A stretch of DNA of 64,000 bases from Stenotrophomonas maltophilia (GTDB lineage: Bacteria; Pseudomonadota; Gammaproteobacteria; Xanthomonadales; Xanthomonadaceae): assembly GCF_025642255.1 (NCBI RefSeq), contig NZ_CP106759.1, positions 62,001-126,000 on the forward strand, in the 5' to 3' direction. A program made the position numbers and the translations under genes. This document shows positions 51,560 through 64,000 of this stretch, in pieces. The notes under the pieces are model-generated. The model saw nothing but the letters and a program-made list of their open reading frames with translations, did no database searches and was not told where the DNA came from. Numbering within the stretch: position 1 is the stretch's first letter; every line of letters starts with the position of its first letter.

Positions 51560-53389
51560 CTATGCCGTACGGGCAACGCCGGGCGGCCGCCGTTCCAGCC
51601 ACCACAGCAGCGAGGCACACAGCACGAAGGCCAGCCACCACGGCCAGCGTGATCCCGGTACGGGCTGCGTCGCCTGTGCCTTGACCGGTGCCGAGGTGGC
51701 CAGGGCCTGCGCCGTCGCATCGATCATTCCCTGCCGGTGCAGCGCCGCCGCATCCGTCCTGTCGAACACATAGCGCCAGTAGGAGCGTTCGCCCTGCTGG
51801 AGCCGGTGCCAACCGGCCTCGCGTGGCCACCAGCCGGCACAGCGTGCGCTGCCGGTGCCGCCGTCCACGATCAGCGCCACCGACGCGCCCCGTGCATCGA
51901 ACACCTGCAACGGCGCCTGCACATCGCACAGGGCCTGTCGTTCCCCGGCCCACGCAATCGGCTGCGGCGACCACGGCGCGGTGCTGCCGCCCTGCGCGCG
52001 CGCCAGGGTGCCGACCACGTCGCTCCACAGCTCGCCATGGCGATCGTCGCGGCCGGCCAGCACCCAGCGCCACGTGTCGGTCAGCGGCAGCAGGCCGATG
52101 CGACCCTTGCCGGCATCGCGCCAGCCTCCGATGGCAGCGCCGCTGCGGTCGTGCAGCAGCGCGGTGGTGGCAGGCACCTGCAGCGCAAGCTGTTCCAAGG
52201 TGGGCAGCGCGGCGGCATGCGAATCACGATCAGCCTCTTCGCCATCGCGGGTGGGCAGCGTGCCCGACGCCAGCGGACCGCGTCGGGCTGCCAGCATCGC
52301 GCTGTCACCATCGCCGGGCAGCGTGACGCTCCGGCTGGCGCCATCGCCCTGCACGGGCAGGCCGAGCTCACGCAGGCGTTGCCGCGCACCGGCCGATGGC
52401 ACGCCGGCACTGCGGACCAGCACACCCAGGCCCTCGTGCATCGCCTGGCGCACCGCTGCGAGCTGGCCACTCCCCAGCGTGGCCAGGCTGCGCTCGTCCA
52501 GCAGCAGCAGGTCGGTGCGCGCCAACGATGCCGCGTCCAGACCGACCTGACCTTCGCTGATGCTGAGGCCGGCGCCGGTGTCGGCCTGCATCTGCACGTC
52601 GATGCCGGCATCGGTGGCCCAGCGTCGCAGGTATTTCAGTTCGGGTCCCGGCGTGCCGGCACGGATCTGCAGGCGTACCCGTGTGGCCGGCAGGGTCTGC
52701 TGGGGTACCGGAACGGTATCGACGACATGGCCTTCGCCATCCAGCAGGCGCAGGCGGAACACGCTGCGGCCTTCGGCACGGGCCACGCCACTCAGTCGCA
52801 CCCGTCCGTCCTCGCCCAGCGGGGCACGATCGATCACCGTGTCAGCCGGGTCCAGCAGCTCAGCCTGCGCACGGGGGACGCCGCGGGCCTGCGCCTGCAC
52901 GTCGAAGCGCGCGCCAGGGGTGACATCCGCGGGCAGCTGCAGCGCGGTCCAGCCGCGAGGGGCGGGCGGTGCCCGCCAATGGACCTGCGCGGGCAGCGTG
53001 GCGTCGCGGTCGCGTGCCTCCAGGCCGGCGCCGACCAGGGTCAGCCGCGTCGAGGGATGCTGGCGCAGCGCCGTCGCCAGGTCCGGCACACGCGTCGCGC
53101 CCGGCACCTGGGTGGCTTCGGGCAACAGGAGGAGCGGTCCCTCGCTTGCCGGCGGCGCGCTGGCCCTTCCGGCATCGGCACCCAGCACCACCAGGCCCGC
53201 AGCGGGCTGCTGCCGTGTGGGCGGCAGCAGGCATGCGTACAGCAGTGCAGCGGCGATGACCTGCAGGCCGAGCACGGCCAACAGCGGGCCACGCGGTCGC
53301 ACCGGTGCGCGCAGCTGGCGCGCGCTGGCGACGAGTACGATCAGCACCAGGACGAGCGCGACCCACAGAGCCGGTGCCGACAGATTCAT
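51560..53389 (-). CDS. Membrane protein of the MoxR operon, last gene
   Basis: A 609-residue protein with N-terminal membrane helices (about 8-22 and 37-55), a long periplasmic region built of beta-rich segments, and a C-terminal helix (about 580-598). I see no von Willebrand MIDAS motif. It occupies the place of the BatB/BatC-type or DUF4159-like membrane proteins in MoxR operons. A putative sugar-ligand or surface-exposed domain is possible but not provable. Its start overlaps the end of the DUF4175-like gene in ATGA, implying translational coupling and a joint complex. Confidence 0.72.
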   Translation of the reverse strand: MNLSAPALWVALVLVLIVLVASARQLRAPVRPRGPLLAVLGLQVIAAALLYACLLPPTRQQPAAGLVVLGADAGRASAPPASEGPLLLLPEATQVPGATRVPDLATALRQHPSTRLTLVGAGLEARDRDATLPAQVHWRAPPAPRGWTALQLPADVTPGARFDVQAQARGVPRAQAELLDPADTVIDRAPLGEDGRVRLSGVARAEGRSVFRLRLLDGEGHVVDTVPVPQQTLPATRVRLQIRAGTPGPELKYLRRWATDAGIDVQMQADTGAGLSISEGQVGLDAASLARTDLLLLDERSLATLGSGQLAAVRQAMHEGLGVLVRSAGVPSAGARQRLRELGLPVQGDGASRSVTLPGDGDSAMLAARRGPLASGTLPTRDGEEADRDSHAAALPTLEQLALQVPATTALLHDRSGAAIGGWRDAGKGRIGLLPLTDTWRWVLAGRDDRHGELWSDVVGTLARAQGGSTAPWSPQPIAWAGERQALCDVQAPLQVFDARGASVALIVDGGTGSARCAGWWPREAGWHRLQQGERSYWRYVFDRTDAAALHRQGMIDATAQALATSAPVKAQATQPVPGSRWPWWLAFVLCASLLWWLERRPPGVARTA

Positions 53390-55566
53390 GGCTGCGCCTC
53401 CAGTGCATCCAGGTATCGCTGCCCCATCGCATCGGCCGCGCTGCGGCGTGTGGCCTGCGGCACGGGGCGCTGCAGTGCCCTCCACAGCTGTGCCCGCAGG
53501 CGCTGCCGGCAGTCGGCACAGCCTGGCTCGATGCGCAACTGTTCGATGGCGGCCGCCAGGTCGAGCGCGTCGGGCAGGTAGGTCGCATTGCGCTGCTGCC
53601 AGCCCGCCAGCGCGTCCAGATCCGGCGTGCCGTCGCCGTCCCCCAGTCGCTGCCAGGCCTCGACGATGGCCGGGTCCGGTGCCGTGCGTGCCGTCAGTGG
53701 CAGCTGTCGGCTGGCCAGCCCGGCGCGGTCACCGCCCAGGCGCCGGCCCTCATCGATGGGCGGCAGTTCCGGGCCGACGCGGGCCAGGTAGATGCGTTCG
53801 GCCTGCTGGACCTGCTTGATGAATCCCAGTGCCTTGTAGGCGTACGGCAGCGCCTGCTCCGGGCGCCCCTGGCGCAGCTCGCCTTCGGAGGCCCACATCT
53901 GGTCGAGTGCCGCCTTCAACGTCGCGCGGGTCTGCGGATCGAGCAGGGTCGCCGCCTCGGCGTGGTCGTGCGTGTGGCCATACTCGGTCAGCACGTCCGT
54001 GGCGCTGCCGAACACCGGTGGCGTATCGGCGTTGCCTGCGTTGCCGCCGTGGTCGTGACCATGCGCATCGTGGTCGCCGGCCTGCGGCTGCGCCGCGTGG
54101 TCGTGATCATGGTCGTGATCGTCGCCGTGGTCGTCTGCGGTGGGGGCGTCACTGGTCGGCAGGTCGCTGGTTGGCGGCGGCTTCGGTGCGCCTTCGCTCT
54201 CTTCGCCAAGGAACTGGCCGTAGCGCAGGCGCAGGATGCGCTGGTCGACGCCGATGGCGTCGCTGCGCTTGACGAAGTCATCGGCGGCCAGGCTGCGCCG
54301 CTGGCGGATCAGCGCTTCCGCATCGAGGATGATCTGCCGTTGGCTGCGGAAGTAGGCCGGCAGGGTCTTCTTGATGCGGCCTTCCAGCTCGGCGCCCAGC
54401 ACCGCCTCGCTGCTGGGCAGGCGCAGGATCACGCTGCTGCTGCGGCCGGTCTGGGGTGTCGGGGCATGGTTGTCGCGCACTTCCAGCTGGGCGATCACAT
54501 CGTTGCCGGGCTGCGCTCCCAGTGCGCCCAGATCCAGCGTGTGAGCGAACCGTCGCGCCGTTGCTTCGCCACTGCCGGTGAGCGTCACGCTGCGCTGGAC
54601 GAAGGTGATGTTCTCGCCGCTGCCCTGGGTGAGGGTGATCGACAGGCGGGCCTGCGTGGCCACGCCGTGATCGTCGCTGGCCTCGAAGCGCAGTGCCCAC
54701 TGGCGCTGCCCGGGCGTGCCCAGTACCAGGCTGGCAGCGGGCTCCAGCACGCGTACGGTCGGGGCGCGGTCCGCCACCACGTCCAGGCGGTACAGGCGTG
54801 TCGTGGCCAGTGCCGGTTCGCTGACCACGCGGTACAGCACCGGTGCACGGGCCACATCCTGCGCCTGCCAGTGGCCGTCGCGCTCGCTCAGCGGCACGCG
54901 CCGGCCATCGTGGAACTGCAGCCATGCGCTGCGGGGCGCACGATCAAAGCGCAGCGACCAGGACAGGCGGCTGTCGGCGGCGACCTTGGCATCGAGTGCG
55001 TTCTGGTTACGGGGTGGTTGACCCGTATAGGCCGGAGCCTCGATGCGCAAGCGGGTGGACTGCAGCTGCAACGGGCCCACAACTGCCGGGGCAGCGGGGC
55101 GCGACGAGGACACGCCCGGCATGGACAGACCGGACCGTGGCCAGCCCAACGCAAGCAGTGCGACGGCGATCCCCCCGACCCAGCACAGCAGCAACGCGCC
55201 GCGCGGCCAGCGCGGACGCAGTTCCGGCATGGCGCGTTCGAGCGCGGCCTGCACATGGTCGCGCTGGCGCTGCTGCAGCGGATTGAGTGCGGCAGGATCG
55301 GCGAACAGCAGGTCGGCGCTGTCTTCGCTTGCCCCGCTGCCGTCAAGCCGGCGCTGCACCCAGCGGCGATCCAAGCGGCGGGCGTGGACCGTGGCCAGCA
55401 CCGTGCAGGCGAGCAGAGTGGCCGTCGCAACGATGCAGGCGATATCGAACCCGCCCAGGCGCAGTGCAAGTGTGGTCGTGGCCAGCGCCCACGGCAGTCC
55501 CAGCAGCAGAGTGATGGCGCCGCTGCGGCGCCGTGCGCGCTGCCAGGCGCGTTGCAGCATCGTCAT
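53386..55566 (-). CDS. DUF4175-like membrane protein with His/Asp-rich loop
   Basis: A 726-residue protein. Membrane segments lie near residues 18-55 and 122-140. A large extracytoplasmic part follows, with DUF4175-type features (beta-rich domains, then helices near 400-450 and 530-590). Around residues 472-509 is a tract rich in His and Asp (DDHGDDHDHDHDH, then HDAHGHDH) that resembles metal-binding loops of zinc and nickel proteins. DUF4175 proteins are found in MoxR operons. The gene overlaps the flanking genes by 4 bases at each end. Metal sensing or storage is inference. Confidence 0.75.
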   Translation of the reverse strand: MTMLQRAWQRARRRSGAITLLLGLPWALATTTLALRLGGFDIACIVATATLLACTVLATVHARRLDRRWVQRRLDGSGASEDSADLLFADPAALNPLQQRQRDHVQAALERAMPELRPRWPRGALLLCWVGGIAVALLALGWPRSGLSMPGVSSSRPAAPAVVGPLQLQSTRLRIEAPAYTGQPPRNQNALDAKVAADSRLSWSLRFDRAPRSAWLQFHDGRRVPLSERDGHWQAQDVARAPVLYRVVSEPALATTRLYRLDVVADRAPTVRVLEPAASLVLGTPGQRQWALRFEASDDHGVATQARLSITLTQGSGENITFVQRSVTLTGSGEATARRFAHTLDLGALGAQPGNDVIAQLEVRDNHAPTPQTGRSSSVILRLPSSEAVLGAELEGRIKKTLPAYFRSQRQIILDAEALIRQRRSLAADDFVKRSDAIGVDQRILRLRYGQFLGEESEGAPKPPPTSDLPTSDAPTADDHGDDHDHDHDHAAQPQAGDHDAHGHDHGGNAGNADTPPVFGSATDVLTEYGHTHDHAEAATLLDPQTRATLKAALDQMWASEGELRQGRPEQALPYAYKALGFIKQVQQAERIYLARVGPELPPIDEGRRLGGDRAGLASRQLPLTARTAPDPAIVEAWQRLGDGDGTPDLDALAGWQQRNATYLPDALDLAAAIEQLRIEPGCADCRQRLRAQLWRALQRPVPQATRRSAADAMGQRYLDALEAQP

Positions 55567-56690
55567 GCGGGCAGCCTCCGCCGCGCGTTGCTGGCCATCC
55601 AGCGCTCCAGTGCGAACAACAGCACGATGGCCAGCAGCAGCCAGGCGGTGGGCTCACGCACGGCAGGCGTGGCAGCCGGCAGGGCGACCTGGCGCGGTGC
55701 GTGATCCTGCGCATCGCCTGAGCGCGGCGGTGGCGCGGGTTGCAACGCCTGCAGCAGGGTGTGCGGCAGGCGGGCATCGCGCAGCGCGGCATTGCCCGCG
55801 GCATTCCATTCGCCGGGCAGGAACAGCAGGCGGCCGTGGCCAACGCGCTGCTGCCACAGCAGCGTCGCGCCTTCGGCGTCGCGCAGCAGCGGGCGTGCAT
55901 CCGCTGCCGGCCGGGCGGCGGTCAGCACGCTGCCACCGTCCTGCAGCCATGCCTGCCAGTGAGCGGGCAGCGCATCGGCGCGGCTCCAGACACCGACTTC
56001 ACCCGAAGCGGGCAGCGCATCCGCAGGCAAGGCGGGCGCGGGTGATCGGGTGCCCCATGCGCGCTGCAGCGCAGCCAGCCAGCGCTGTGCCGCGGCCGGG
56101 GCATCAGCGTGCATGCGCAGTTGCGGCAGCGGGGTGGGCGCGGCCGTTGCAGCAGTCGCACGGGGATGTGTCTGCCATTGCACCGCCCGCGAGAGCTGCA
56201 GGCGCATGCCGTCGAGGCCGGGCAGCGGATCGGGCACGTGCACGGTCAGCGCGGTGCCGGTCGGCAGCTGCGCATCCAGTTCGCGCAGCAGGCTGGGCAG
56301 GGCCACATCCGTGGCCGGTGGTGGCTGGTCGATGGTGGGGAATCCGGGCGCAAGCCAGCGCCAGTTGTCGTCGCCGGCAGGAGCGCCGGCATGCAGCGCG
56401 GTCGCATCCAGACCGGGTGCGACGACCGTCCATGCGCCGGTAGCCGGCGCCGGTCCGGTCAATGCCGGCCGCGCCAGCAGCACGGCCAGCGCGGCAAGCA
56501 GCAGCAACCGCACCAGCAGCAGCGGCCAGTCATCGAAGCGGATGCGCTGGCGCGGGCGGATCCGTGCACGCAGCCAGCGCAGCGCGGCGAAGTCCAGCGG
56601 CGTGTAGGGATGGCGACGCGCGAGATGGATCAGCAGCGGCAGCAGCCACGCCGCCAGTGCGGCCAGCCCGAGCGGAAACAGCAGGCTCAC
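55563..56690 (-). CDS. BatA-domain membrane protein
   Basis: A 375-residue protein. The N-terminal BatA-type domain (two membrane helices, about 2-25 and 55-80, with LIHLARRHPYTPLDFAALRWL between them) is followed by a periplasmic part where a von Willebrand domain would be expected, but no clear MIDAS (DxSxS) motif is seen. A C-terminal helix (about 345-365) closes it. GTG start, overlapping the DUF58 stop by 4 bases (GTGA). It probably anchors the MoxR-DUF58 machinery to the inner membrane. Confidence 0.82.
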   Translation of the reverse strand: MSLLFPLGLAALAAWLLPLLIHLARRHPYTPLDFAALRWLRARIRPRQRIRFDDWPLLLVRLLLLAALAVLLARPALTGPAPATGAWTVVAPGLDATALHAGAPAGDDNWRWLAPGFPTIDQPPPATDVALPSLLRELDAQLPTGTALTVHVPDPLPGLDGMRLQLSRAVQWQTHPRATAATAAPTPLPQLRMHADAPAAAQRWLAALQRAWGTRSPAPALPADALPASGEVGVWSRADALPAHWQAWLQDGGSVLTAARPAADARPLLRDAEGATLLWQQRVGHGRLLFLPGEWNAAGNAALRDARLPHTLLQALQPAPPPRSGDAQDHAPRQVALPAATPAVREPTAWLLLAIVLLFALERWMASNARRRLPA

Positions 56691-57580
56691 GCGCCGCCCC
56701 CGCGGCCGAACAGCGCCTGCAGCGGCTGGTCCACCGGTTGATCGAGCCAGCCGGTGGCACTGGCGATGCCACTGGCCTGCAGCCGCAGGTGCAGTGCTGT
56801 GTGTGCAGCGGTGAAACGCTGCAGGTAGTCGGCGCGGATCGCCGCGCCATCGCCGAGCAGTTCCTCGCCGGTTTCAGGGTCGCGGAACCGATGGCCGGCA
56901 TCGAACGGGAAGTCGCGCTCGTCGGCGGTCAGCACCTGCAGCAGCAGTACCTCGCGGCGTGCACTGGCCAGGTGCTCCAGCAGCACGATGCCGGCGTCAT
57001 CAAAGCCATCGCCGATGGCCAGCAGCAGGTCGCCCGGGCGAACGCGCTCCCACAGCGGGCGCAGCGTGTCACGGGCGGGCCAGCCGCCTCGTGGCTGCAG
57101 GGCATGCAGTTGCAGGTGCACGCGGTCGCGCTGGCGTGCGCCCTGCGCTGCGGGTACCAGCTGCAGGCCGTCGCCGGTGACGGTCAGCAGGCCGAAATGA
57201 TCGCCCTGCTGCAGTGCCAGCTCGCAGACACAGGCGGCCAGCATACGCATGTGATCCAGGCGGCTGCGTGCCGGCGCGGTGCGATCGGACTGGCCGGCCG
57301 ATGCGGTGGCATCGAGCAGCAGCCATACCGTGATCGGGCTTTCGCGCTCCGACTCGCGCACGAAGAAGCGGTCCGAGCGCGCGTACAGTTTCCAGTCGAT
57401 CTGGCGCAGTTCATCGCCGGGTTCGTAGGCGCGGTACTGGGCGAATTCCAGGCCGGCGCCACGACTGCGGCTCGCGTGCTGGCCGATGCCGCTCGCGCCG
57501 CTGGCCAGACGTGGCCGCAACCGCAGCGCGCGCAGGCGCGCTCGCAGTTCGGGAGGCAGGACCAGCGTGCCAGCACTCAC
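56687..57580 (-). CDS. DUF58 domain protein
   Basis: A 297-residue protein with the DUF58 signature GLEFAQYRAYEPGDELRQIDWKLYARSD (about 42-70) and a von Willebrand-like MIDAS (LLLDATASAG). DUF58 proteins are the standard partners of MoxR ATPases and probably bind metal and client proteins. GTG start, 7 bases after the MoxR stop. Its end overlaps the BatA-domain gene in GTGA. Confidence 0.92.
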   Translation of the reverse strand: MSAGTLVLPPELRARLRALRLRPRLASGASGIGQHASRSRGAGLEFAQYRAYEPGDELRQIDWKLYARSDRFFVRESERESPITVWLLLDATASAGQSDRTAPARSRLDHMRMLAACVCELALQQGDHFGLLTVTGDGLQLVPAAQGARQRDRVHLQLHALQPRGGWPARDTLRPLWERVRPGDLLLAIGDGFDDAGIVLLEHLASARREVLLLQVLTADERDFPFDAGHRFRDPETGEELLGDGAAIRADYLQRFTAAHTALHLRLQASGIASATGWLDQPVDQPLQALFGRGGGA

Positions 57581-57587
57581 GCGTGGA

Positions 57588-58571
<984 letters not shown>

Positions 58572-58584
58572 GGGGGGCTCTCAC

Positions 58585-59292
58585 TCAATTGTTCAATGCG
58601 TACATCACGATGTTGACGCCGAAGCGCGTGTTGTCCTCGGCCAGGAAGCGCTTGTTGCGCCAGTCGTAATCCCACTCGCAGCCATAGTCCTTGTTGCTGT
58701 ACAGCACGCCCAGGCGGCCATCGACCTCGATGCCCTTCAGATAGTCGTGCACCAGATCGTCGCCCCAGCCGTTCAACTCGAAGCTGGTGGCCGGTGGTCC
58801 ATCGGGGAAGCGGAAGAAGCTGCGGTACAGCGCGTGGCTGTTGGGCAGCTTCTGCAGCGCCCTGGGCCCGAACAGGCGGCCCATCTGCGCCTCGAAGGAG
58901 GTTGCGAACAGGCCATCGATGTCATGGTTGCAGTCATCGACGAAGACGAAGCCTCCGTTGCGCACGTAGCGCACGAAGTTCTGCCGCTCGGCCGCGTTGA
59001 ATTCCACCAGCGTGTGCCCGGCCAGGTAGCAGAAGGGGGCTTCCAGCATGCGTGGGTCGGCCAGTGCCACCACGTGTTCCTGCGGGTCCACGCGCAGCGA
59101 GGTGTAGTCGATCAGCGAAGTGATCAGGTTGGACGGCATGCGCGCGTCCACGTCCCAGTCGCCCGAGTCGTACTGCAGGCGGGTGAACCAGAAGTCGTAG
59201 CGCGAACTGCGCGGGCCTGCCTGTGCCCAGGCCGGAAGCGCGGCCGCCGAAGCGGCAGCAGCCAACCAGCGCAGGCAGGCCCGGCGATCCAT
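58585..59292 (-). CDS. DUF4159 domain protein, Tat-like signal
   Basis: A 235-residue protein. The N-terminus (MDRRACLRWLAAAASAAALPAWA) has an RR motif and a cleavable hydrophobic core. The DUF4159 domain (about 35-230) contains the pattern YDFWFTRLQYDSGDWDVD, GGFVFVDDCNHDIDG and the closing SNKDYGCEWDYDWRNKRF. The fold is related to glutamine-amidotransferase-like/ThuA-type domains, but no catalytic residue is certain. The start overlaps the PmbA-like stop by one base (TGATG). Members occur in MoxR operons. Confidence 0.85.
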   Translation of the reverse strand: MDRRACLRWLAAAASAAALPAWAQAGPRSSRYDFWFTRLQYDSGDWDVDARMPSNLITSLIDYTSLRVDPQEHVVALADPRMLEAPFCYLAGHTLVEFNAAERQNFVRYVRNGGFVFVDDCNHDIDGLFATSFEAQMGRLFGPRALQKLPNSHALYRSFFRFPDGPPATSFELNGWGDDLVHDYLKGIEVDGRLGVLYSNKDYGCEWDYDWRNKRFLAEDNTRFGVNIVMYALNN

Positions 59293-60626
59293 CAGACGGC
59301 GTCGGACAACGAGGTGAAGGTGAAATCGCGCAGCTTCATCGGCGGGATCATCATCACGAAGCTCGACTCGTCGCCGGCCACGCGCACCGGCTTGCCCAGC
59401 TCTTCGATGTTGTTGAGCATGATCACCGGCGATTCGTTGAAGCGGAAGTTCTTCACCGGGTGCTTGATCTGGCCGTTCTCGATGTAGAAGGTGCCGTCAC
59501 GGGTCAGGCCGGTCAGCAGCACGGTCTGCGGATCGACCATGCGGATGTACCAGGTGCGGGTGACCAGGATGCCCTTCTGGGTGCCACGCACCAGCTCGGC
59601 GGTGCTCTTCTCGCCGCCGCTCATCAGCAGGTTGCCCGGCGTGGCCTTGGCGGTCTTGCCCTGCTTCTGCGCCCAGAAGCGCGAGTAGTCCAGGTTGGCC
59701 ACCTTGCCGTTCTCGATGATGGCCAGGCGCTCGCGCGGCATGCCCTCGTTGTCCCACGGCAGCACCGGCGCTTCCGGGTGCCACGGATCGGCATACATGT
59801 TCACGCGTGGGTCGTAGACCTGCTCACCGAGCTTGTTGCCGCCGCCCTTCTTCGACAGGAAGCTGCGGCCTTCGTCGGCCGAGCGCGCACTGAAGAAATT
59901 CATCATGAAGCTGATCAGGCCTGCGGCCGCGGCCGGCTCCAGGATGACCGTGTACTTGCCCGGCTCCAGCGCCTTGGCTTCGGCCGACTCGGTGGCCTTG
60001 CGCATGGCGATGCGGACATCCTGGTCGGCCTTGAAGTCCGCCGCGTCCTTCAGGTTGCGGCCGACCCAGCCCGATCCGCGGCCGTCCTCGGTACGCACGG
60101 TGCAGGTGTAGTCGAAGTTGGTGGTGCGCTGGTAACCGAAGTTGCCGTTGCTGTTGGCAGTGGCGTAGAAGCCCTGGCCATCTTCAAGGAAGCCTGCGGC
60201 AATCAGTCCGTTGCCACGGCAGGGCGCGATCGAATCGGCGGCCACCTTGGCGCGGAATGCCGGATCGATGGCGGCGGTGGACTCGCTGAAGGTCGGGCTC
60301 GGCCGGTAGGTCTGCTTGCCGATGGCGGGCATGAACTCCGGGTTCTCCGGTGCCAGGCGGGCCAGATCCTCGGCGCGGCGCACCACGCGTTCCAGTGCGG
60401 CGTCGTCGAACTCGTTGATCGAGGCGGTGCCTACGCGCTTGCCGAAGGCCACGGTAACGGCAAGCTCGGTGTTGTCCACGATGCCGCTGGTGGAAACGTT
60501 GTTCAGGGCGAAACGGATGTTGCCGGCGATCGATCCCGCCAGCACGGCGGTGCATTCATCGGCCTTGGACAGGGCGATGACCTTGTCGAGGATGGCCTTG
60601 GCCTGGGCTTCGGTGAAGATACTCAT
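59292..60626 (-). CDS. PmbA/TldE-like metalloprotease-family protein
   Basis: A 444-residue protein of the TldD/PmbA group. Segments AVTVAFGKRVGTASINEFDD, GKYTVILEPAAAAGLISFMM, GRSFLSKKGGGNKLGEQV and the C-terminal PVKNFRFNESPVIMLNNIEELG are typical. It lacks the HExxxH metal site, as the PmbA/TldE subunit does, so it is probably the non-catalytic partner of the TldD genes upstream. In E. coli TldD and TldE form a heterodimer that degrades unfolded peptides and matures microcin B17. It has no clear export signal, unlike its TldD neighbours. The gap to TldD is 21 bases. Confidence 0.92.
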   Translation of the reverse strand: MSIFTEAQAKAILDKVIALSKADECTAVLAGSIAGNIRFALNNVSTSGIVDNTELAVTVAFGKRVGTASINEFDDAALERVVRRAEDLARLAPENPEFMPAIGKQTYRPSPTFSESTAAIDPAFRAKVAADSIAPCRGNGLIAAGFLEDGQGFYATANSNGNFGYQRTTNFDYTCTVRTEDGRGSGWVGRNLKDAADFKADQDVRIAMRKATESAEAKALEPGKYTVILEPAAAAGLISFMMNFFSARSADEGRSFLSKKGGGNKLGEQVYDPRVNMYADPWHPEAPVLPWDNEGMPRERLAIIENGKVANLDYSRFWAQKQGKTAKATPGNLLMSGGEKSTAELVRGTQKGILVTRTWYIRMVDPQTVLLTGLTRDGTFYIENGQIKHPVKNFRFNESPVIMLNNIEELGKPVRVAGDESSFVMMIPPMKLRDFTFTSLSDAV

Positions 60627-60647
60627 GGTGTAAGGGCTCCTGACCGG

Positions 60648-62282
60648 TCAGCCGAGGCTGCGTGCGGTGTTGATGACATTGATGCCGTTGAAGCGTGCGG
60701 TCGACGAGCCGTGCGAAACCGCCGAGACCTGGCCCGGCTGGCCCTTGCCGTCGAAGAACGAGCCGCCCAGGCGGTAATCGCGTTCGTCGGCCACGGCGGT
60801 GCAGGCGTTCCAGAACTCCGGCGTGCGGATCTGGTAGGCCACGTCCTCCAGCATGCGGGTGATCTGGCCGTTCTTGATCTCGTAGAACAGCTGGCCGCCG
60901 AACTGGGCGTTGTAGCGCTGCTGGTCGATCGAGAACGAGCCGTCGCCGATGATGTAGATGCCGTTCTCCACGTCCTTGATCAGGTCCGGCACGCTCAGCG
61001 GCGTCTTTCCCGGCGCCATCGACACGTTGGCCATGCGCTGGAACTGCACGCTGGACCACGAGTCGGCATAGCAGCAGCCATCGGACTCGGTCTTGCCGAG
61101 GATGTGGGCCTGGTCGCGGATGGTCTGGTAGTCGACCAGCTTGCCGTTGCTGATCAGGTCCCAGCGCTTGCACTTCACGCCTTCATCGTCGTACGCGACC
61201 GCGCCGAGGCTGCCCGGCTGGGTCTTGTCGGCGAACACGTTCACCAGCTCGCTGCCGTACTGGAAGCGCTGCTCGCGCTTGTCCAGGGTGGCGAAGCTGG
61301 TGCCGGCGTAGTTGGCCTCGTAGCCGAGCACGCGGTCCAGCTCCAGCGGATGGCCGATCGACTCGTGGATGGTCAGCCAGGTGTGCGACGGGTCCAGTAC
61401 CAGGTCGTACTTGCCCGGCTTCACCGACGGCGCCTTCAGTTTCTCCTGCGCCTGCTTGGCGGCCGCGATGGCGTCCTCCTTCATGTCGTAGGAGGAACTG
61501 TAGTTGACCACGCCGTTGGGGCTGACGACCTTGCCGGCGGCGGCGCCGTCCAGATACTCGTAACCCAGGCCCATCGGCGCAGACAGGCCTTCGCGGGTGC
61601 GGAACTTGCCACTGGTCTTGTCGATGGCGGTGACGGTCATCGGTGCCCAGATGCGGTGCACGTCCTGGTCGATGTAGGAGCCATCGGTGGATGCGAAGTA
61701 CTTCTGTTCATTGACCAGGAACAGCATCGAATTGACGAAGCTGGCACCGGCGCCGATCGCTGCGGCATTGACGTCCAGCAGCAGGTCGACCTTCTCCTTG
61801 ATCGGCACCTCCATCGCATTCTTGCGGATCGGCGTGCGCCAGCTGACCTCGCCCACGCCGGGCGTGCTGGCCAGCTGCACCGGCGCGCTCTGCACGCCAG
61901 CGTTGGCCTTGGCGATGGCCGCAGCCTGCTGGGCGGCCCTGGCCACGTCGGCAGTGCCCAATGCGTTGGTGGCGGCGAAGCCCCAGGCACCGTTGACGAT
62001 CACGCGGATGCCCACACCGGTGGACTCGGTGTTCACCACGTTCTGCACCTTGTCTTCGCGGGTGATCACGAACTGCCGCAGATAGCGGCCGATGCGCACG
62101 TCGCAGTAGGTGGCGCCGGCACTGCGGGCGGCCTGCAGGGCAGCATCGGCCAGGCGCTTCTTCAGCGCGGGGTCAAGGCTGGACTGCAGCTGCTCGGCGG
62201 CGATCACTTTGCCGAAGAAGGACGGCACGATCAGGCCGCCCGCGGTAAGGCCGGTCAGGGCCAGGAAGTCACGTCTGTGCAA
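60648..62282 (-). CDS. TldD-family protease with twin-arginine signal (copy 1)
   Basis: A 544-residue protein. The N-terminus (HRRDFLALTGLTAGGLIVPSF) is a twin-arginine signal. The metalloprotease site TIHESIGHPLELDRVLGYEANYAGTSF contains HExxxH (about residue 305) followed by the conserved Glu. The start is TTG with GGAG at about 8 bases; no closer ATG fits. E. coli TldD (481 residues) has no signal, so this subgroup is exported or membrane-associated. It lies 28 bases after a second TldD copy. Likely forms a dimer with the PmbA-like protein or with copy 2. Substrate unknown. Confidence 0.9.
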   Translation of the reverse strand: MHRRDFLALTGLTAGGLIVPSFFGKVIAAEQLQSSLDPALKKRLADAALQAARSAGATYCDVRIGRYLRQFVITREDKVQNVVNTESTGVGIRVIVNGAWGFAATNALGTADVARAAQQAAAIAKANAGVQSAPVQLASTPGVGEVSWRTPIRKNAMEVPIKEKVDLLLDVNAAAIGAGASFVNSMLFLVNEQKYFASTDGSYIDQDVHRIWAPMTVTAIDKTSGKFRTREGLSAPMGLGYEYLDGAAAGKVVSPNGVVNYSSSYDMKEDAIAAAKQAQEKLKAPSVKPGKYDLVLDPSHTWLTIHESIGHPLELDRVLGYEANYAGTSFATLDKREQRFQYGSELVNVFADKTQPGSLGAVAYDDEGVKCKRWDLISNGKLVDYQTIRDQAHILGKTESDGCCYADSWSSVQFQRMANVSMAPGKTPLSVPDLIKDVENGIYIIGDGSFSIDQQRYNAQFGGQLFYEIKNGQITRMLEDVAYQIRTPEFWNACTAVADERDYRLGGSFFDGKGQPGQVSAVSHGSSTARFNGINVINTARSLG

Positions 62283-62310
62283 GGCTGCTCTCCATGAACG
62301 ATGGGGTGGC

Positions 62311-63942
62311 TCAAGCGCCGAGACTGCGCGCGGTGTTGATGATGTTGATGCCGTTGAAGCGGGTGGTGGACGAACCGTGCGACACCGCCGAGACCTGGCC
62401 CGGCTGGCCCTTGCCGTCGAAGAACGAGCCGCCAAGCCGGAAGTCGCGTTCGTCGCAGATGGCCGTACAGGCGTTCCAGAACTCCGGCGTGCGGATCTGG
62501 TAGGCCGCGTCCTCGACCATGCCGGCGATCTTTCCGTCCTTGATCTGGTAGTACAGCTGGCCGCCGAACTGCGCGTTGTAGCGCTGCTGGTCGATGGAAT
62601 AGGAACCACGGCCGTGGATGTAGATGCCGTTCTCCACGTCCTTGATCATGTCCTCCACACTCAGTGGCTGCCTGCCCGGCGCCAGTGAGACATTGGCCAT
62701 GCGCTGGAACTGCACGCTGGACCAGGAATCGGCGTAGCTGCAGCCATGCGACGCATCGCGGCCGAGGATGTGTGCCTCATCGCGCGTGGCCTGGTAATCG
62801 ACCAGGATGCCGTCGCGGACCAGGTCCCAGCGCAGCGTCTTGACGCCCTCGTCGTCATAGCCGACGGCACCGAGGCTGCCCGGTTGGGTCTTGTCGGCAA
62901 AGAAGTTGACGATGTCGCTGCCCCAGCGGAAGCCCGCATCGCGCTTGTCCAGCGTGGCGAAGCTGGTGCCGGCGTAGTTGGCCTCGTAGCCCAGCACGCG
63001 GTCCAGCTCCAACGGATGGCCGACGTTCTCGTGGATGGTCAGGAACAGGTTGGAGGGATCCAGTACCAGATCGTACTTGCCGGGCTTCACCGACGGCGCC
63101 TTCAGCTTCTCGCGCGCATGCCGCGCCGCTGCGATCGCATCTTCAACCGGATCGTAGGAGTCGCGGTAGGCGGTGATGCCGCCGGGCAGCTGCACCTTGC
63201 CGCGCGCGTCGCCATCGAGGAACTCGTAGCCCATGCCCATCGGCGAGGACAGACCGGCGCGGGTGCGGAACTTGCCGGTGGCCTTGTCGATGGCGGTGGC
63301 CGTGAAGGGCAGCCAGATGCGGTGGATGTCCTGGTCGATGAACGAGCCGTCGCTGGAGGCGAAGTACTTCTGCTCGTTGACCAGGAACAGGGTGGAATTG
63401 ATGTAGTCGGCACCGGCGTTCATCGCCGCCGCATTCAGGCTCAGCAGCAGGTCGACCTTGTCCTGGATCGGCACTGCCATCGCGTTCTTGCGGATCGGGG
63501 TCTTCCAGCTCACATCGCCGACGCCGGTGACCGGTGCCAGCTGCACCGGCCGGCTCTGCAGGGGGGCGTTGGCGCGTGCGATGGCGGCGGCCTGCCCGAC
63601 GGCGGCCAGGACCGCGGCGGGGGTCTGCTCGCGGGTGGCGGCGAAGCCCCATGCACCGTTGACGATGACCCGGATGCCGATGCCGGACGACTCGCTGTTG
63701 GTGACGTTCTGCACCCGCGCTTCGCGGGTGATCACGGCCTGGTTGAGGTAGCGGCCGATGCGCACATCGCAGTAGGTCGCCCCGGCCCGCTTGGCAGCGG
63801 CCAGCGCGGCCTCGGCCAGCACCTTCCTGCGGGCCATGTCGCCCGGTTCGAGCAGCTGCTCGGCGGCGATCAACCGCGCGTGCGGCAGCAGCAGGCCGGC
63901 CATGCCCAGACCGGATAAAGCCAGGAACTCACGTCGTTGCAC
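62311..63942 (-). CDS. TldD-family protease with twin-arginine signal (copy 2)
   Basis: A 543-residue paralogue of the downstream TldD, alike from the signal (QRREFLALSGLGMAGLLL) to the C-terminus (RFNGINIINTARSLG). The metal site TIHENVGHPLELDRVLGYEANYAGTSF keeps HExxxH. The GTG at 63942 fits the start of copy 1; another GTG 15 bases upstream is possible. GAGAG lies before it. It is the first visible gene of the operon, and the upstream 43 bases show no further gene. The tandem pair looks like an old duplication, as several core positions differ while catalytic residues are kept in both. Confidence 0.9.
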   Translation of the reverse strand: MQRREFLALSGLGMAGLLLPHARLIAAEQLLEPGDMARRKVLAEAALAAAKRAGATYCDVRIGRYLNQAVITREARVQNVTNSESSGIGIRVIVNGAWGFAATREQTPAAVLAAVGQAAAIARANAPLQSRPVQLAPVTGVGDVSWKTPIRKNAMAVPIQDKVDLLLSLNAAAMNAGADYINSTLFLVNEQKYFASSDGSFIDQDIHRIWLPFTATAIDKATGKFRTRAGLSSPMGMGYEFLDGDARGKVQLPGGITAYRDSYDPVEDAIAAARHAREKLKAPSVKPGKYDLVLDPSNLFLTIHENVGHPLELDRVLGYEANYAGTSFATLDKRDAGFRWGSDIVNFFADKTQPGSLGAVGYDDEGVKTLRWDLVRDGILVDYQATRDEAHILGRDASHGCSYADSWSSVQFQRMANVSLAPGRQPLSVEDMIKDVENGIYIHGRGSYSIDQQRYNAQFGGQLYYQIKDGKIAGMVEDAAYQIRTPEFWNACTAICDERDFRLGGSFFDGKGQPGQVSAVSHGSSTTRFNGINIINTARSLGA

Positions 63943-64000
63943 AGCGCTCTCTCTCACTCGCGTGCGGCCGGCAACGGGCCAAGCCGATCACGTCAACTGC

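Follow-up and report, generated by a model that had tools for sequence, protein, structure and literature searches.

Tat-type TldD genes joined to a MoxR–DUF58–BatA–DUF4159 module in Stenotrophomonas maltophilia: a candidate exported metalloprotease

The stretch of DNA analysed here (64,000 nucleotides of the Stenotrophomonas maltophilia contig NZ_CP106759.1, referred to as the window) contains a minus-strand operon of nine open reading frames (ORFs) at positions 51560–63957. In this operon, genes for two TldD proteins with signals of the twin-arginine translocation (Tat) type and for their partner PmbA (TldE) are joined to the genes of a MoxR–DUF58–BatA–DUF4159 module. We regard it as an evenly balanced possibility that the operon encodes a predicted TldD–PmbA metalloprotease that is exported and likely periplasmic, with PmbA likely travelling as a hitchhiker and MoxR likely assembling or activating the enzyme. 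An interpretation of this kind, namely a periplasmic peptide-processing machine that depends on MoxR for assembly, had been proposed from the window alone (the original prediction) and is partly supported by the present analysis.

Linkage of Tat-type TldD, DUF4159 and MoxR

The surveys covered Pseudomonadota, plus one Nonomuraea record. With the first TldD of the operon (TldD1) as the query, we surveyed an even sample of 101 genomes of the order, taken from a larger group. The matches listed fell into two well-separated groups, one with identities of 57–100% (at least 365 bits, including fragments) and the other with at most 40% (at most 76 bits). Tat-type TldD was present in 27 of the 101 genomes and DUF4159 in 29, including all 27; counted by genus, Tat-type TldD occurred in 14 of the 50 genera, all among the 16 with DUF4159. 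A naive hypergeometric test gives 1.6e-22 for genomes and 1.3e-10 for genera, the genomes being related and not independent. MoxR was found in 24 of the 29 loci from the 26 order genomes beyond that of the window, and the five loci without it are contig pieces of 3.1–7.7 kb. In G045 and G092, TldD is on broken contigs, and the MoxR contigs start or stop near PmbA or DUF4159.

A second set (the named loci) consisted of the best 80 of at least 584 relatives, picked by likeness to Tat-type TldD and overlapping with the order sample; judged by title, they are chiefly from Xanthomonadales, Sphingomonadales and Caulobacterales. MoxR was present in 70 of the 80 and the complete set from PmbA to gene I, the last of the operon, in 58, while the ten loci without MoxR stop 0–85 bases past the last recognised gene. 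The association of TldD with MoxR claimed in the original prediction was thus borne out, since MoxR adjoins TldD in 24 of the 26 other order genomes and in 70 of the 80 named loci, and the rest are cut by contig ends. Where the contig is long enough, the conserved core order is TldD–PmbA–DUF4159–MoxR–DUF58–BatA–H–I, with some pieces added or missing, and it is near-identical in loci of two bacterial classes. In loci of three distant families (f4, f7 and f10), similarity searches did not recognise BatA. A neighbourhood formed by chance was rejected by the order, named-locus and phylum surveys.

Of the two TldD genes originally described, the second is outside the core: a single TldD is seen in 39 of the 80 named loci, some of them cut. 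If present, it stands before the first or, in Lysobacter, after PmbA; the TldD–PmbA–TldD arrangement was seen in the Lysobacter loci L060, L065, L066, L067, L072 and L076. In G013 (L016:12392–14725) the TldD genes are 2.3 kb apart; the intervening ORFs resemble, on inspection by eye, genes for a short-chain dehydrogenase and a LysR-type regulator.

Six of 200 genomes sampled from the phylum had a Tat-type TldD (>990 bits), each time near a DUF4159 open frame of 244–303 amino acids (aa). Among the other 39 DUF4159 genomes, the shortest frame had 578 aa and all the rest exceeded 900 aa. A rule that a short DUF4159 implies TldD was rejected, as short frames without Tat-type TldD occur in G004 and in the second places of G016 and G034. 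MoxR–DUF58 modules with short DUF4159, in which TldD was not recognised, were observed at L127 (G016) and L121 (G004); G016 also has a TldD-linked module, so both kinds of module can share one genome. Among 142 genomes of the class of G124, DUF4159 was present in 71 (70 above the cut-off), and at E 1e-60 or better Tat-type TldD was found in one and an intermediate form in one (G406, 525 bits). The same limit was passed by two of 150 genomes of the order of G283, namely G283 and G524. The contig of locus L116, labelled Verrucomicrobia, carries a Tat-type TldD with 72% identity to TldD2 of the window that groups with that of a Nevskia metagenome-assembled genome; it may be mislabelled, contaminated or the result of transfer.

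Active site, export signals and kinship of the TldD–PmbA set

TldD1 (62311–63957, minus strand; 548 aa from a GTG start) and TldD2 (60648–62285, minus strand; 545 aa) are 74% identical. Translation confirmed the HExxxH motif in both, as had been claimed: it reads HENVGH in TldD1, and the key residues of TldD2 are H307, E308, H312, D512, Cys404 and Cys495. The motif is constant in all 156 aligned TldD sequences. All 156 also have Asp at the position of E. coli Cys454, so that a Cys metal ligand is replaced in TldD1, and the ordinary TldD of the same genome has Cys there. Cys404 is present in 156 and Cys495 in 155 of the 156, and within the sample the Asp/Cys495 form is confined to the TldD of the operon. 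A passage of PMC5810440 gives Cys454 of E. coli TldD as the third zinc ligand and states that Asp can substitute for it, e.g. in Gemmatimonas. What is added here to this known variation is that, within our sample, the Asp form accompanies the MoxR operon. By an estimate from the alignment, Cys404 would lie within or close to the brace, with Cys495 ahead of the clamp; a disulfide between them is a guess. The loss of the Cys ligand and the added Cys495, possibly paired with Cys404, are consistent with an oxidising compartment.

Six distant TldD–PmbA pairs (G283, G227, G286, G524, G406 and Nonomuraea) all retain Cys. Their translations, inspected by eye, showed a Tat-like signal in G406 and none in the other five. 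No MoxR-side genes were found in the stretches around these six pairs, the contig of G406 ending just after PmbA. In a tree of 54 TldD sequences, one branch separates the 47 Tat/Asp operon forms (support 90/95, below the level starred by the tool). Nearest to it are G406, G283, G524 and Nonomuraea, with several long branches whose joins may be false. Plasmid records named Pseudomonas aeruginosa (H3, H4 and H5) hold a more distant TldD relative that is 31% identical.

Export signals were scored by a rule of our own, not by a trained predictor: close to the protein start, the motif RRx[FLIVM][LIVMF] together with an h-region free of charged residues. TldD1 and TldD2 carry QRREFLALSG and HRRDFLALTG near their N-termini, respectively, which agrees with the twin-arginine signals originally reported for both. 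All 159 TldD that reach their start have a Tat-like signal (162 matches in all, three running off the contig end). The corresponding counts are 0/101 for PmbA, 0/92 for MoxR, 0/82 for DUF58 and 23/62 for DUF4159, after exclusion of late-starting alignments (1, 2, 7 and 32 copies, respectively), among which three of the 32 DUF4159 copies and none of the others are Tat-like. An uncharged hydrophobic stretch of 12 residues within the first 35 residues was also absent from 101 of 101 PmbA sequences, and PmbA starts at the first residues of its fold in nearly all copies. TatC is encoded in the S. maltophilia genome.

Judged on sequence, export of TldD is favoured over the cytosolic location of its E. 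coli relative, as proposed, and the TldD–PmbA enzyme would likely work in the periplasm because its TldD parts carry export signals. The proposal of a periplasmic TldD/PmbA machine is thereby supported for TldD; no export signal was found on PmbA, so it must hitchhike or stay inside. Export of signal-less partners by Tat hitchhiking is established for HybOC and PaoABC, according to a passage of PMC4273604, which makes hitchhiking of PmbA the economical reading. PmbA would thus probably leave the cytosol together with TldD, without a signal of its own.

The kinship of the gene families was compared between 26 loci of another class (all those taken for Alphaproteobacteria by title, together with G124) and eight loci from f4, f7 and f10, which are distant families of the same order. 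Median identities, counting matches that cover >80% of the length, were 77% in the other-class loci versus 64% in the same-order loci for TldD, 74% versus 52% for PmbA, 76% versus 72% for DUF4159 (with overlapping ranges), 78% versus 59% for MoxR, 55% versus 35% for DUF58, 45% versus 32% for H and 37% versus 26% for I. BatA was matched at 39% identity in 17 of the 26 other-class loci and in none of the eight same-order loci. All eight gene families are thus closer in the other-class loci, the reverse of ordinary TldD, which is 64–66% identical to that of f4, f7 and f10 and 59% to that of G124, the sole other-class genome compared. The nearer same-order families f3, f11 and f12 (six loci) scored about as the other-class loci, the ordinary TldD of f12 being 70–73% identical. 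The pattern was the same in an earlier comparison that used 17 other-class loci picked by hand. These data are most simply read as the operon having passed between classes in one piece, which favours a functional unit.

Proposed mechanism and rival explanations

In the proposed mechanism, TldD would fold in the cytosol, bind its metal and pair with PmbA, and the pair would be exported by the Tat system. In the periplasm it would cut unfolded peptides that enter an inner chamber, in the manner of E. coli TldD/E, for which an inner chamber and peptide cutting are described in part of PMC5810440. The pair would be located at the inner membrane alongside BatA, H, I and the DUF4159 protein, while cytosolic MoxR and DUF58 would remodel the membrane complex using ATP, and metal placement would perhaps be aided by the His-rich loop of H. 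Assembly of the protease by MoxR is plausible. A further form of this mechanism, which we consider quite improbable, is a trans-envelope AAA+ protease in which cytosolic MoxR–DUF58 drives a BatA–H–I–DUF4159 complex of the inner membrane to open, load or feed the exported TldD–PmbA chamber. The periplasm has no ATP, and such an enzyme, if true, would be an ATP-powered envelope counterpart of the cytosolic AAA+ proteases.

Several observations weigh against the exported, MoxR-served protease. In the class of G124, DUF4159 without Tat-type TldD is commoner than with it, and four of the 31 DUF4159 places in the order are outside any such operon. MoxR was present in all six DUF4159 loci without Tat-type TldD that were examined, and the module therefore has a role without the protease. 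The best MoxR matches in G283, G227, G286, G524 and G406 are away from TldD–PmbA. The MoxR matches listed in these five genomes are on another contig or far away, and the single match in G406 at E 1e-30 sits in a module with a long DUF4159 and no adjoining PmbA. Since TldD–PmbA pairs without a linked MoxR exist, MoxR is unnecessary for the fold as such. G406 also combines a Tat-like signal with Cys; thus export alone does not force Asp, and export alone as the cause of Asp is unsupported. The RR pair of the DUF4159 protein was found in only 25 of the 62 copies with an aligned start and a Tat-like signal in three of 32 further copies with an unaligned start, so that a general Tat signal on DUF4159 is likewise unsupported. 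The 156 aligned TldD were selected by likeness to those of the window, and their uniformity is therefore partly by choice. Finally, the His-rich loop of H may be merely a linker. A His-rich H may mark the TldD-linked modules: in five loci without TldD, inspected roughly, the recognised MoxR-side frames included no comparable His-rich protein, but counterparts of H were not identified there.

A tentative alternative is that the protease serves an envelope machine formed by MoxR, DUF58, BatA, H, I and DUF4159, trimming a component of it or its peptide product, with MoxR unneeded for the assembly of TldD. The many genomes that hold DUF4159 without Tat-type TldD and the MoxR genes of the six loci mentioned above are in line with this explanation. 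It also agrees with the importance for envelope integrity and cell shape that a passage of PMC3893208 reports for the Rhizobium MoxR operon RL3499–RL3502, and the close coupling of TldD–PmbA with the membrane genes suits both it and the MoxR-served protease. It is rather unlikely that TldD is exported alone and acts as a homodimer or as TldD1–TldD2, with PmbA as a cytosolic holding or loading partner. Such an arrangement would fit the 101 PmbA sequences, in which neither a Tat-like signal nor any other hydrophobic one was found, the two TldD genes of some loci and an active Sulfolobus TldD homodimer (a report cited in PMC5810440), but PmbA is retained near TldD, typically ~21 bases off, the activity of E. 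coli TldD/E requires both subunits according to PMC5810440, and 39 of the 80 named loci, some of them cut, show a single TldD. We find it very unlikely that the neighbourhood reflects only shared regulation, with two unrelated systems under one promoter. The TldD–PmbA and MoxR halves do occur apart elsewhere, but the common order in two classes, the joint shift in kinship and the confinement of the Asp/Cys495 form to the operon in the sample all argue against it.

The linkage is stronger than could be known from the window alone. With DUF4159 modules lacking TldD also common, the operon has the look of two merged modules, and the joint system is best regarded as the union of a MoxR envelope module with a TldD–PmbA pair that its signals would export and whose metal site is changed. 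If MoxR serves an exported protease, MoxR modules would gain a concrete client. MoxR modules and TldD/PmbA proteases, both poorly understood, would gain a shared and testable context, and the operon would offer a natural case in which the metal ligand and a constant Cys of a metalloprotease differ from those of its relatives in step with the joining of a module.

Operon layout and comparison with known systems

The nine leftward genes originally described are all present as minus-strand ORFs. The start originally given for TldD1 (63942) is a later GTG in the same frame, five codons inside the ORF that begins with GTG at 63957. In transcription order, the junctions are gaps of 25 and 21 bases, a 1-base overlap, gaps of 13 and 7 bases, and three 4-base overlaps. 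The 4-base overlaps had been described correctly; the gap reported as 28 bases is 25 here, and 28 implies another start for TldD2. Across loci, the median gap from TldD to PmbA is 21 bases (95 pairs) and the last three junctions are mostly 4-base overlaps.

PmbA (59292–60626, minus strand as are all the following; 444 aa) has no signal peptide that could be found. The DUF4159 protein (58585–59292; 235 aa) has a hydrophobic N-terminal signal, with the RR pair present in the S. maltophilia genome, and a sequence relationship to PDB 4i66. The MoxR AAA+ ATPase (57588–58571) has intact GAPGLGKT (Walker A) and DELNR (Walker B) motifs, and no membrane span or export signal was found in the vWA-like DUF58 protein (56687–57580). 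The BatA-type protein (55563–56690) has two spans at its N-terminus and one at its C-terminus. Protein H (53386–55566) has spans to residue 141, beyond which a predicted periplasmic part contains immunoglobulin (Ig)-like sheets, a His-rich loop and an HxH motif; the Ig-like fold matches are weak, and H531 and H533 of the motif are kept in 64 of 64 aligned sequences. Protein I (51560–53389) has two N-terminal spans and a C-terminal helix; the initial Foldseek search gave low TM-scores, and a second look revealed a clear ThuA/GATase1-like domain in the model at residues 235–468.

Pfam matches above the cut-offs were PmbA_TldD domains 1–3 in TldD1, TldD2 and PmbA, and DUF4159, AAA_3, DUF58 and BatA in the respective proteins; the BatA-type protein exceeded the cut-offs of PF07584 and TIGR02226. 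The AAA_3 ATPase adjoins the DUF58/vWA protein, as in a MoxR–vWA module. Genes H and I had no Pfam or NCBIfam match at E 0.01, and the DUF4175 label assigned to 53386–55566 was not confirmed. TldD2 scored 78 and 130 bits against the NCBIfam TldD equivalogs NF008006 and NF040952, whose cut-offs are 513 and 635. The S. maltophilia genome is one contig of 4.12 Mb that also has an ordinary tldD and pmbA (G000:C1, 2.91 Mb), and the operon is therefore a second, different set. TldD2 is 100% identical in the same-species genome G081 and in FOZF01000004.1 (L038).

The operon resembles E. coli TldD/TldE (PmbA; PMC5810440, PDB 5nj5 and others) in PmbA_TldD domains 1–3, HExxxH and the adjacent PmbA. The E and D after the motif (E270 and D272) and the Lys two residues past the third ligand, whose roles are described in part of PMC5810440, are also kept. 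In contrast to E. coli TldD, the operon TldD have Tat-like signals, Asp for Cys454, the extra Cys495 and a linked MoxR module, and they are far under the NCBIfam equivalog cut-offs. Since Asp is allowed in some members (a passage of PMC5810440), it excludes the E. coli type but not the TldD/PmbA family. The R. leguminosarum operon RL3499–RL3502 (MRP subfamily) likewise places MoxR in an operon tied to membrane integrity and cell morphology, a likeness drawn from that passage of PMC3893208 and not from gene content. In the other-class module of G406, DUF4159 is within a long BatA-type frame with no adjoining TldD. The Bat (Bacteroides aerotolerance) operons of Bacteroidetes and spirochaetes share MoxR and a BatA-type protein with the Stenotrophomonas operon, which differs in adding TldD, PmbA and DUF4159. 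The likeness to the Tat hitchhikers HybOC and PaoABC, as presented in that passage of PMC4273604, is the Tat signal on one subunit and none on its partner, and co-export of TldD and PmbA would be the counterpart.

The joint system had been thought undescribed; it is very likely already in print as an uncharacterised operon. A passage of PMC7688217 lists nine S. maltophilia locus tags, NIPOLPBK_01784–01792, whose products comprise two TldD proteins, one MoxR-like ATPase, one putative protease, one membrane protein and hypotheticals. It reports lower expression of some of these genes in biofilms of every isolate (seven isolates, by title) and terms the operon not yet characterized. These tags very likely correspond to the nine-gene operon of the window, matched by gene content and not by tag mapping. 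The words DUF58 and DUF4159 are absent from the main text of PMC7688217, and no literature was found under the term DUF4159. Among literature on TldD with MoxR or with twin-arginine, PMC7688217 was found to describe such an operon, and other matches could hold a description as well. A passage of PMC8602642 on TldD and TldE in Gluconobacter, with a possible role in pyrroloquinoline quinone supply, was not used as support.

Upstream of TldD1 (L007:100–540), no sigma-70-like site was found. The same region has GC-rich near-palindromic repeats, which by eye are like repetitive extragenic palindromes, and two overlapping terminator-like calls. A HipA/HipB-like gene pair, named by eye, is located upstream of the operon at L007:1210–2951 (G000:C1 127210–128951), just outside the window.

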